Shown here: positions 15,101 through 21,100 of the stretch, piece after piece
Position numbering within the stretch: the first letter of the stretch is position 1
How the letters are laid out: every line of letters starts with the position of its first letter
NCBI RefSeq assembly: GCF_000003815.2
Contig: NC_049984.1
Location: forward strand, 8,078,197 to 8,142,196
Direction: 5' to 3'
DNA: 64,000 nt
Origin: Branchiostoma floridae
Taxonomy: Eukaryota > Chordata > Leptocardii > Amphioxiformes > Branchiostomatidae
Program-made: the position numbers and the translations under genes
The notes under the pieces: model-generated
Told to the model about the DNA's origin: nothing
Seen by the model: the letters and a program-made list of their open reading frames with translations, nothing else
Database searches by the model: none

Positions 15101-18100
15101 CAGAAAGCTGACGTGTTTTCATACTTATGCCCACACACATGACCAAACACAGGCACTGTGCCTCAAGTCTACAGTGTGGGGGGAGGGCAGGACCTCAGAA
15201 TGGGAGGTCTCATCTCTGCCTTTGTATTCCAAGCGGTGGACCAGAAGTTCTGGGATCTGTTCTTTTCACATTACCAGTAAAACAGCCTTTATGAATGCAT
15301 AACACATCAGTTTTGTACAATAAGTACAAGCAGCGTAAGACCAGACTGTAATGATTGATCCTCTCACACTGCGATAGATCCCCCTTTATTTTATAAGTGT
15401 GGTGGGTTTTTAAACGTGTTCCAAGTGTGGCTTTCCTCCGTCACTGGATCTCCAGCATACGTGCCATCCAAAAGGATATACCGTCGTGCCTGTTTGCACC
15501 TGTTTGTGAAAGACATTTGTAAACTGGCCACCAATATGATGCCTGAAGGTGCAACTTTTTGGAAACTTTAAAGAATTTGCTGTTGGCAAAATTGGCAAAA
15601 CAAATGAATGTTTGAAAAACCAACAACAGAGACTGTATGGCTAAATCTAGCAGTATCACATTCTAGACACCAGTCAGGTATTTTCCTTCCTTTCACAGGG
15701 AATACCAAACCACAGTAATGTCTGCCTCAAAGTTTCCCCTCAAACAAGCTCAATGTTCACCCCAAAATAGCCGTAGGAATGACAAATATAGTCCAGCACT
15801 TCCAAAAATCTCACCAAAACACCCGGGCTAATTGAATGCTTCCGGGATAATTACTCAACAATGTTTTGTAACCAGGGGTGAAAAGGAATTTTTAGGATGT
15901 GACATCAAGCTGGCCATTTGACACTGTATTTGAAAACATCCACCTTTCTACCTGAGGTTTACACTTCCGACCTCAACTCACAACACTTCTTTACAGAGTC
16001 ACTGGTGCTGTAGGGTACAGGAATGGCGATAATGTGGGAGGACGTATGCAGATTGTTATCACACGTCAATTCTTACAACCTCATAAAGAGATGTGTGTAA
16101 GGATCCTATCATTAGAGTGAGTGTGTGAATGAGTGAGCAAATGAGTGAATGAGGGAATGAGTGAGTGAGTAAATAAGTGAGTGAGGGAGTGTATGAGTGA
16201 GTGAGTGAATGAATGAGTGAATGAATGAGTAAGCAAGTGAATAAATGAGTGTGTGAGTGAGTGAGCGAGTGAGTGAATGACACACCTTTCTCAGCTGCTG
16301 ATGTCATTACTTTCAAACTGTTTGTACTGGATATTCTGTAAAGACACAAAACACTTGTACTACACTGTTATACTTACATGATGTCTACTCCGATGTGCTT
16401 GAAGGAGGCGACCACAAACTCCCTGACACTGTGCACTGTTCCCGTGGCAACAACGAAGTCGTCTGGCACCTCATGCTGCATGATCATCCACATGGCCTGG
16501 GGTAGACAGAGGGAAAAACAACATGAAACATAGTAGAGAGTGAGTGAACAAGTGAGTTATCCTCTTACAATTAAGATTTTGACAAAAATGTTCCTGCAGT
16601 TCCAGAGTATGTGGTCAGGGGGCCCAATCCTAGAACACTTTTTCATCATAAGCTATCTATCACAAAAAATCACAAGATATAAAATTCAAAAGCTGTGCTG
16701 TGGTACCATGCAAGCTGTCAGAGGGCCCCAAATCTATTCATTATCAGCTTTTGTCACACACCAACACACAAAATATTAAACCGGTCCACACACAGACACA
16801 CAAACACACACTGCTCAATGTCTTAGTAACCCACTATCAACATGGCGTACCACCCAACATATAACAAGGGGAAGGTCAATCCTTGTCAGTGACTTTCCTA
16901 CCAAAAACAGGACAAGTCCAGATATATACTGCCAACACTCAGGTGTCTGTGTTATACCGCATGGTCTTTTTAGCGAATGCCCACAAACGCCCACTCTAGA
17001 GAAGTCCGCGCTGCACGAATCTCATTTTTTTTGCTTGGAATATGTCCACGTTGTGCTCCCATGTATTAATCCTGAGTTTCAAGTCAATCCATTGACCCGA
17101 AGTGACATAAATCAAAGTTTTCGATTCTAAAATGGTCTTTTTAGCGAACGCCCAGCAAAATGTCTTTTTAGCGAATGCCCACTATATCCACAAAAATATC
17201 GGCCGTCGCGCAACGACACCTAAACCTACCGGCACAAACATGTTCAAGATGGTATCCCATTGATGTGTACGGAGTTTCCGTGCTTTACAAGCATTTTAAG
17301 TCCCTGGTTTTGGTCAAAATGTCTGGCGCCGNNNNNNNNNNNNNNNNNNNNNNNNNNNNNNNNNNNNNNNNNNNNNNNNNNNNNNNNNNNNNNNNNNNNN
17401 NNNNNNNNNNNNNNNNNNNNNNNNNNNNNNNNNNNNNNNNNNNNNNNNNNNNNNNNNNNNNNNNNNNNNNNNNNNNNNNNNNNNNNNNNNNNNNNNNNNN
17501 NNNNNNNNNNNNNNNNNNNNNNNNNNNNNNNNNNNNNNNNNNNNNNNNNNNNNNNNNNNNNNNNNNNNNNNNNNNNNNNNNNNNNNNNNNNNNNNNNNNN
17601 NNNNNNNNNNNNNNNNNNNNNNNNNNNNNNNNNNNNNNNNNNNNNNNAATATGGATATTTTTTCTGCGCTATTATTACCCAGGTTTGAGGAACAAAAGGC
17701 TCAGACACATAAGTGTTATAAACCTGACTAGGGACAGGTAACCAATACTAGAAAAACATAGCTATTTATTATTAACAATACTATTTACATTATAATAATA
17801 ACTCTTCACCAAACTGGACTTTTCTTATCTTTATTTATCACAGAAACATTGTTACAATGAGGATTTGATTAGATGAGTATCTGTTACAGTGTGTACAAAC
17901 TTATTTCAAATACAAAAATGTATTTCATTTCACTTCCTAAATATTTTTAAAGAATTGGAAGAAGTTGACACATAAACAATATTAATTGCATTATTTGTGT
18001 GCAGTAAAATGTGACCACATGCTATCAATAGCCTAATAAGATGTTGGAACATGGCACGAGCGGGCTCCTCTTCTGAGTACAGAAAGAAAATGTTTTATAG

Positions 18101-21100
18101 CATTTAGTTATGACGTAGAAAATTTCAATTGTAAAATGTACCTTTATTAACATTAACAAACAAATTGTTTTTTTCTCTTCTTAATAAATGACAACAATAC
18201 AGGTAAGTAAGGTGTGTTTCCTTTTATAACAGGCCAGGTAAGACGCCGTACAGGTAAGTAAGGTGTGTTTCCTTTTATAGCAGACCAGGTAAGACACCGT
18301 ACAGGTGAGTAAGGTGTGTTTCCTTTGATTACAGACCAGGTAAGACACCGTACAGGTGAGTAAGGTGTGTTTCCTTGACTACAGACTAGGTAAGACACCT
18401 TACAGGTGAGTAACGTGTATTTCCTTTCATTACAGACCAGGTAAGACACCGTACAGGTGAGTAACGTGTATTTCCTTTGATTACAGACCAGGTAAGACAC
18501 CGTACAGGTGAGTAAGGTGTGTTTCCTTGACTACAGACAAGGTAAGACACCGTACAGGTGAGTAACATGTATTTCCTTTCATTACAGACTAGGTAAGACA
18601 CCGTACAGGTGAGTAACGTGTATTTCTTTTGATTACAGACCAGGTAAGACACCGTACAGGTGAGTAAGGTGTCTTTCCCTTGCCTATATACCAGATAGGC
18701 CATTATACAGGTGAGTAAGATGTCTTTCCTTTGCCTATATACCAGATAGGCCATTATACAGGTAAGTAAGATGTCTTTCCTTTGCCTATAGACCAGATAG
18801 GGCATTATACAGGTAAGTAAGTTGCTTTACTCACCTGTATAATATCTATCTGGTCTATAGGCAAAGGAAAGACGCCTTACTCACCTGTATAATGGCCTGT
18901 ATGGTAGTATATAGGCGAAGGAAAGTTGCTTTACTCACCTGCACAATACCCTATCTTGTCTATAGGCAAAGGAAAGACATCTTACCTGTATAATGGCCTA
19001 TCTGGTCTATAGGCAAAGGAAAAACACCTTACTCACCTGTATAATGGCCTATCTGGTATATAGGCAAGGGAAAGACACCTTACTCACCTGTATAATGCCC
19101 CATCTGGTATATAGGCGAAGGAAAGACACCTTACGTACCTGTATAAAACCCTATCTGGTCCATAGGCAAAGGAAAGTTGCTTTACTCACCTGCACAATAC
19201 CCTATCTGGTCTATAGGCAAAGGAAAGACGCCTTACTCACCTGTATAATGGCCTATATGGTATATAGACAAAGGAAACACACCTTACTCACCTGTGCGGT
19301 GTCTTACCTGGTCTGTAATGAAAGGAAATACACGTTACTCACCTGTACGGTGTCTTACCTAGTCTGTAATCAAAGGAAATACACGTTACTTACCTGTACG
19401 GTGTCTTACCTAGTCTGTAGTCAAGGAAACAGACCTTAATCACCTGTACGGTGTCTTACCTGGTCTGTAATGAAAGGAAATGCATGTTACTCACCTGTAC
19501 GGTGTCTTACCTAGTCTGTAATCAAAGGAAGTACACGTTACTTACCTGTACGGTGTCTTACCTAGTCTGTAGTCAAGGAAACACACCTTACTCACCTGTA
19601 CGGTGTCTTACCTTGTCTTTAATGAAAGGAAATACATGTTACTCACCTGTACGGTGTCTTACCTAGTCTGTAATCAAAGGAAATACACGTTACTTACCTG
19701 TACGGTATCTTACTTAGTCTGCTATAAAAGGAAACACACCTTACTTACCTGTACGGCGTCTTACCTGGCCTGTTATAAAAGGAAACACACCTTACTTACC
19801 TGTGTTGTTGTCATTTATTAAGAAGAGAAAAAAAATTTGTTTGTAAATGTTTGTAAAGGTACATTTTACAATTGAAATTTTCTACGTCATAACTAAATGT
19901 TATAAAACATTTCCTTTCTGTACTCAGAAGAGGAGCCCGCTCGTGCCATGTTCCAACATTTTATTAGGCTATTAATAGCATGTGGTCACATTTTACTGCA
20001 CACAAATAATGCAATTAATATTGTTTATGTGTCAACTTCTTCCAATACTTTTAAAAATATTTAGGAAGTGAAACGAAATACATTTTTGTATTTGAAATAA
20101 GTTTGTACACACTGTAACAGATACTCATCTAATCAAATTCTCATTCTAACAATGTTTCTGTGATAAATAAAGATAAGAAAAGTCCAGTTTGGTGAAGAGT
20201 TATTATTATAATGTAAATAGTATTGTTAATAATAAATAGCTATGTTTTTCTAGTATTGGTTACCTGCCCCTAGTCAGGTTTATAACACTAATGTGTCTGA
20301 GCCTTTTGTACATTAATTGGGCACTGAGGTGAATCGATATCCATATTTGCACTAAGTTCCTCAAACCTGGGTAATAATAGCACAGGAAAAAGGACCACAA
20401 TGTAAATATCAGTCAGATGATAGCACTATGAATTGAAAATCTTGTTCAGAATTCACTCTAAAATGGTTGTATGAGAAGCTATGCTACAACAGTCCCTCCC
20501 GCGATACTTATAGAACAGTCCCTTAAGGAGGTCACATGACTAGTGCCCGCCATTTTGAATTGCTATAGTTAGTGTATGGTAGTATCGGCGCCAGACATTT
20601 TGACCAAAAACAGGGACTTAAAATGCTTGTAAAGCACGGAAACTCCGTACACATCAATGGGATACCATCTTGAACATGTTTGTGGCGGTAGGTTTAGGTG
20701 TCGTTGCGCGACGGCCGATATTTTTGTGGATATAGTGGGCATTCGCTAAAAAGACATTTTGCTGGGCGTTCGCTAAAAAGACCATCGAGAATCGAAAACT
20801 TTGATTTATGTCACTTCGGGTCAATGGATTGACTTGAAACTCAGGATTAATACATGGGAGCACAACGTGGACATATTCCAAGCAAAAAAAATGAGATTCG
20901 TGCAGCGCGGACTTCTCTAGAGTGGGCGTTTGTGGGCATTCGCTAAAAAGACCCTCCCGTTAACACTGTCAGGCCCTGCCTGTGGAATCACAAGTCAGGA
21001 GGTCAAACAACTGTTATAGAGAGAACAGGATGCGACCCAAACAGTCATGATAGAGACGGGGAAGTGCCGGTCCACGGGCCAGTGGCAAGTATGCGTACTT

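Follow-up and report, generated by a model that had tools for sequence, protein, structure and literature searches.

A palindromic element in a GMDS intron of Branchiostoma floridae, one copy of a fold-back family with splice-signal-like tandem arrays

The window analysed here is a stretch of 64,000 nucleotides from the amphioxus Branchiostoma floridae (assembly GCF_000003815.2, contig NC_049984.1, positions 8,078,197 to 8,142,196 of the forward strand). It carries a palindrome of about 4 kb with near-identical arms in an intron of the gene GMDS, which lies on the minus strand, between the exon matches 28268-28414 and 16377-16499. An initial annotation, made from the letters of the sequence, had placed the palindrome in this intron and had described its arms and its inverted tandem centre; these descriptions hold. 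The palindrome is one copy of a mobile fold-back family with about 100 copies. We regard it as a non-autonomous, fully palindromic fold-back DNA transposon, probably mobilised by a transposase of the Mutator-like (MULE) type (probability about 0.78). That it is a fold-back transposon is held with high confidence; MULE-type mobilisation, which is argued from its flanks, ends and arms, is held with moderate confidence.

The palindrome in the GMDS intron

Wherever the two arms of the window copy can be aligned they match at 95-99%; an assembly gap of 316 N hides about 270 bp on the left (Table 1). The arms lead inwards to an array of 51-bp units, which changes orientation at a single hinge. The limits originally given, 16963..20953, leave out the outermost 5 bp; comparison of 25 copies placed the true ends 5 bp further out on each side, giving an element of 4001 bp (16958-20958). 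These outermost 5 bp are unlike at the two ends (CGCAT on the left, CTCCC on the right) and both are part of the element. The terminal motif GTCTTTTTAGCGAA has two further copies in the left arm (17130-17154 and 17157-17181).

Table 1. Coordinates in the window of the fold-back element, its parts and two neighbouring features
Feature	Position	Strand	Remarks
Whole fold-back element	16958..20958	.	C-end (CGCAT) left, G-end (reverse complement of GGGAG) right
CGCAT, asymmetric outer motif of C-end	16958..16962	+	24/25 copies checked; TGCAT in L024
Left arm, outer part	16963..17331	+	Inverted-arm alignment
Assembly gap, 316 N, within left arm	17332..17647	.	
Left arm, inner part	17648..18197	+	
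51-bp array, left half	18198..18821	+	Units point to centre; splice-signal-like
Hinge, AGGTAAGTAA-GTTGCT-TTACTCACCT	18811..18836	.	Array orientation switches here
51-bp array, right half, inverted	18827..19803	-	Units point to centre
Right arm, about 1.15 kb, gap-free	19804..20953	-	
CTCCC (GGGAG on minus strand), asymmetric outer motif of G-end	20954..20958	-	23/25 copies checked
Inverted arm pair	16956-17128 / 20788-20960		98% identity
Inverted arm pair	17132-17331 / 20586-20785		99% identity
Inverted arm pair	17685-17951 / 20050-20316		97% identity
Inverted arm pair	17944-18176 / 19824-20056		95% identity
Inverted pair inside array	18198-18824 / 19127-19753		91% identity
Degenerate GAGT repeat	16115-16280		About 100 bp from GMDS exon match 16377-16499
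TANGO2 coding sequence	33966-34673	+	

A dispersed family with fixed ends and 9-bp target duplications

The genome searched contains 513,431,437 bases in 431 contigs; labels such as C1 and C14 denote contigs and L-numbers denote fetched loci. Matches to the first 198 bp of the element were found at the 40 places scored of 356 candidates, several of them as opposed pairs a few kb apart. Twenty-eight loci around these matches were fetched for comparison of copies. In 21 of the 28, both arms (about 1134 bp) are complete and 94-98% identical to the right arm of the window copy; in the remaining seven the arms are broken, gapped or incomplete within the fetched stretch.

The initial annotation had proposed a search for the same ends elsewhere in the genome, and they are abundant. 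The exact 25-bp end starting with CGCAT (the C-end) occurs 113 times and that starting with GGGAG (the G-end) 111 times. Reversed control patterns of both have no occurrence in the genome, which excludes chance; the viral contigs contain no exact match to a 20-bp end. Pairing was computed on the 100 C-ends and 100 G-ends listed, with ends considered as partners if they face each other within 20 kb. Among these there are 80 C-G pairs, 1139-18181 bp apart (median 4089), no C-C pair and a single G-G pair, that is, one of each end per element; 20 C-ends and 20 G-ends have no partner. Inverted identity between the two ends stops at GGTCTTTTT, and copy comparison shows that the element extends 5 bp beyond this, with CGCAT at the C-end and GGGAG at the G-end. 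The two ends are told apart by alignment columns 1, 3 and 5 alone (22 copies). The family therefore has the defining features of fold-back elements: dispersed copies sharing their ends, and long inverted repeats that meet near the centre and are built partly of tandem repeats.

The interior was sampled in a number of copies. In ten, the sequence about 1 kb in from the C-end was examined: the standard arm is present there in seven, the copy's own G-end in one (a copy of 1.1 kb), N in one and foreign sequence in one. A copy of 9.2 kb (L016) contains nested non-LTR (non-long terminal repeat) retrotransposon sequence. This lies at about 2205-6955 of the locus, with a reverse transcriptase and an open frame of 1188 amino acids, as two tandem pieces within the 51-bp array. 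Six more copies, of 6.2-11.2 kb, were sampled at their midpoints: two have N there, one (L082) has a match to a window repeat, and three have sequence matching none of those compared. The window repeat concerned (37419-37566) matches the middle of L082, a 7.9 kb fold-back copy on C17, at 87% and is taken as an interspersed repeat.

Target duplications were examined in 25 copies, comprising the window copy and 24 of the 28 loci (L021, L030, L031 and L034, whose second end is outside the fetched stretch, were left out). An exact 9-bp duplication is present at 18 of the 25. Three more have variants: 8/9 matching positions in L014, 10 bp in L009, and 9 bp in L032, where part of the outer motif has been lost and the duplication, beside the shortened end, was judged by eye. 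When flanks were paired across different copies as a control, none of 600 pairings gave eight or more matches.

Divergence was measured on 22 copies, L015, L024 and L033 also being left out (broken arms). Within a copy, the median difference between the two arms is 1.28%; across copies, the medians are 1.59% (G-G), 1.79% (C-C) and 1.88% (C-G). Since divergence across copies is nearly as low as that within them, the likeness of the arms is due mainly to the youth of the whole family, with only a small contribution from within-copy conversion. At 3.45%, arm divergence in the window copy is the highest of the 22, in part because its left arm is disturbed beside the assembly gap (as judged by eye), and it does not appear to be especially young. 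Of the earlier suggestion of a recent insertion or of conversion, what is supported is a recent spread of the family.

The 51-bp array and its splice-like motifs

Array orientation was scored with the motif AGGTRAGTAA in 24 copies (L024 was left out). All forward motifs lie before all reversed ones in each of the 24, with a single switch, and the donor motifs point inward from both ends. The halves being inverted, a transcript from either direction meets sense units first. The number of motifs per copy ranges from 1 to 23 forward and from 2 to 29 reversed, so that the array is variable in length. Five copies (L014, L016, L017, L029 and L032) have their last forward and first reversed motifs at common positions, 1563 and 1579 from the C-end, which suggests a subfamily.

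A total of 629 units (626 without N) was collected from the 24 copies by similarity to two seed units. They split into type A (403) and type B (223). The type A unit, TACAGGTGAGTAACGTGTATTTCCTTTGATTACAGACCAGGTAAGACACCG, includes an exact consensus 5' splice site (CAG/GTGAGT), a 3' splice-site-like stretch (a pyrimidine tract, then ACAG) and another donor-like sequence (AG/GTAAG); type B has the pyrimidine tract and the first of these donors but not the second. An intact first donor (AGGTRAG) is found in 91% of type A units and 77% of type B units; the corresponding values are 94% and 0% for the second donor and 98% and 71% for the YAG acceptor. As judged from these sites, all of them predicted, the units look like strings of RNA splice signals, a character absent from the initial annotation. 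Such a core is unusual.

A related array is carried by another element. The 18.2 kb copy on C14 proved to be a fold-back with a different element nested in its right arm (L021:3566-6001, also L076). This nested element is large, has inverted ends, CACCCCATACACATAGCG, which start with CACCCCATACACATAGCGTTAA, and is flanked by ATT and AAT, without a target duplication. Its relatives are found on C1, C4, C6, C7, C10, C14, C19 and small contigs. It has a 51-bp array of its own (L021:5027-5470), whose unit, in the best register, agrees with that of fold-back type A at 32 of 51 positions, compared with a maximum of 28 in 20,000 shuffles. Related 51-bp arrays are therefore present in at least two structurally different elements, the nested one without the GTGAGT donor. 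A search with the nested array gave 118 matches from the 40 scored of 151 candidates, including fold-back copies at 67-70% and further places at 68-76%. The latter (C12:2084717, C5:788917, C5:29054965, C3:28297181, C13:16824965 and C323:121384) are possibly a third carrier of the array.

What the splice-like motifs mean is less certain. We give about even odds to the view that the array consists merely of transposase-binding or spacer repeats in which these motifs are incidental. Repeats carrying transposase sites have been reported for Galileo (as cited in PMC4079207), and conservation of the unit would be expected equally for a protein-binding site. In addition, about 23% of type B units have no intact first donor, 29% no YAG acceptor and none the second donor, and AGACCAGGTAAG..ACCGTACAGGT, but not the GTGAGT donor, is retained in the nested element's related unit. 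Shuffling of type A argues in the opposite direction: of 200,000 shuffles, 0.07% contained an exact CAGGTRAGT, 0.0025% had two AGGTRAG on the same strand and none combined the two features. The same holds for departures from the type consensus, which amount to 2.7-3.4% at the first-donor, second-donor and pyrimidine positions and 5.6% at the acceptor AG against 11% elsewhere, a comparison biased by the seed-based choice of units.

A more far-reaching proposal, which we offer tentatively and consider rather unlikely, is that selection has built arrays of splice sites in both arms, in sense orientation from either end, so that, at whatever place and in whichever orientation the element inserted in a gene, the transcript could splice it out or mask it within a hairpin. 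This element, together with at least one other, would then seed new introns by spreading such arrays through the genome and might be one source of the 'mirages' described in amphioxus. SOS splicing is the splicing-out of DNA transposons with inverted repeats; the phrase was not met in our literature search.

The initial annotation had also envisaged a hairpin in the GMDS pre-mRNA, and this is reasonable. The predicted RNA fold of a gap-free copy (L018) contains 1146 arm-to-arm pairs in its outer 1150 bases. A hairpin of this type in the host pre-mRNA would pair the splice-like units with antisense units, which may perhaps be why the element is tolerated in an intron.

Mobilisation and relation to known systems

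The 9-bp duplications, the asymmetric outer motifs and the arm repeats together point to an element of the Mutator/Foldback kind, nearest to Tm1. A MULE transposase made elsewhere would bind the terminal motif GGTCTTTTTAGCGAATGCCC, near-copies of which occur twice more within the arm and would suit additional binding sites. It would then cut out the element and reinsert it at a staggered 9-bp site. The array would have grown and shrunk by unequal exchange, and the palindrome would have formed when one arm was overwritten with a copy of its partner as far as the outer 5 bp.

Several observations weigh against this. Four of the 25 copies tested (window, L020, L024 and L025) have no target duplication. 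The flanks of the window copy, gtgttatac and gttaacact, match at 2/9 positions (best at other lengths, 4/7), which the initial annotation had recognised while missing the 9-bp duplication of the family; lacking a duplication, the window copy may have passed through recombination. No transposase was found between C- and G-ends in the copies read, and the autonomous relative sought between such ends was likewise not found, with only thin sampling of copies above 5.5 kb and of the 20 + 20 listed ends that have no partner. The MULE domain (PF10551) has 27 matches in the genome, none with a significant arm match within about 1.5 kb. A MULE pair at C18, tried as autonomous partner, was rejected as it sits 3.6 kb outside the copies. 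Finally, 9-bp duplications are not exclusive to MULEs.

A segment containing a MULE-domain gene is duplicated at the C18 loci (L064 and L065, at 7.78 and 7.86 Mb), where the gene lies outside a fold-back copy, at a distance of 3.6 kb. Two further MULE loci, at C1 and C2, are 99% alike and have an array (C1) and a G-end (C2) about 10-11 kb away. They were dropped as partner because the stretch outside the C2 G-end matched nothing compared except the end itself, and because near-complete copies of the C1 MULE region were seen only at these two loci when 40 of 2968 candidates were scored; the loci may still have a real link to the family. Among the MULE-domain loci, L044 and L045 are 99% identical and on different chromosomes, and L051 and L054 adjoin tandem repeats of about 91 and 122 bp.

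Movement by another class of enzyme (P/THAP as in Galileo, Merlin or one without a name) we judge improbable. It is favoured by the failure to find a MULE with these ends, by Galileo, which shows that P-superfamily elements can take on the fold-back form (PMC3573991), and by the view of the Tm1 authors that this form has evolved more than once (PMC3169594). The 9-bp duplication and asymmetric outer motifs nevertheless fit Mutator/Foldback best, and the Merlin-type domain DDE_Tnp_IS1595 (PF12762), the one alternative family searched for, has three matches in the genome, none near a listed end. A local inverted duplication or assembly artefact, formed in place and immobile, is suggested by the assembly gap and missing duplication of the window copy but is hardly credible, as about 100 copies with the same ends, 18/25 with exact 9-bp duplications, refute a local origin for the family. 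The initial classification as a non-autonomous fold-back transposon is thus upheld by dispersed near-identical copies, fixed ends, 9-bp duplications at most copies examined and the lack of a transposase in the copies read.

Among the open-licence papers listed in our literature searches, no title or abstract shown concerns an amphioxus fold-back family or fold-back arms composed of splice-signal repeats; Repbase may list the family. Fold-back elements can drive inversions and yield long double-stranded RNA. The mobiliser of some, such as Tetris, is not known, and here there is a young family of about 100 copies with clear ends and duplications in a chordate genome. Arrays of splice signals would also offer a testable link between transposons, minisatellites and intron gain, an idea previously discussed for amphioxus mirages (PMC3087553).

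Like mirages, for which B. floridae is known, the array consists of minisatellite-like repeats with splice signals; mirages copy a gene's own exon-intron boundary in place, whereas the array is borne by a mobile element and has no known parent exon (PMC3087553, PMC3902484). It was considered as a mirage and rejected, since its copies are spread genome-wide and the GMDS exon match closest to it is about 1.7 kb away. A separate repeat in the window does resemble one. At least two degenerate copies of the end of the GMDS exon 28268-28414, with its 5' splice site, are present in the intron that follows (28028-28414, minus strand). The best alignment scores 55, whereas 300 shuffles gave at most 24; a further copy was recognised by eye. 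The intron that holds the fold-back also contains this mirage-like duplication.

Rehavkus, whose listed hosts are arthropods and annelids, shares the 9-bp duplication and a minisatellite near the inverted ends; it encodes a transposase with a PHD finger, whereas no transposase was seen here, no PHD-directed search having been made (PMC6446971, PMC10218199). Tetris of Drosophila virilis is similar in its long arms with tandem repeats, its 8-10 bp duplications and the absence of an identified transposase. It differs in having 220-bp repeats, three structurally complete copies and a variable middle domain, compared with 51-bp units and about 100 copies here (PMC4079207).

The closest parallel is Tm1 of the root-knot nematodes Meloidogyne (PMC3169594). 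Tm1 has duplications of 8-10 bp, mostly 9, in 45/53 cases, asymmetric motifs outside the repeats (7 bp, compared with 5 bp here) and tandem repeats in its arms. As in the present family, most copies are non-autonomous and some have no duplication. Splice-signal units are unmentioned in the accessible text, and, unlike here, the Tm1 repeats are of about 14 bp and its groups differ in the middle (histone hairpin, MITE-like (miniature inverted-repeat transposable element) or transposase), one class encoding a MULE transposase of the Phantom type.

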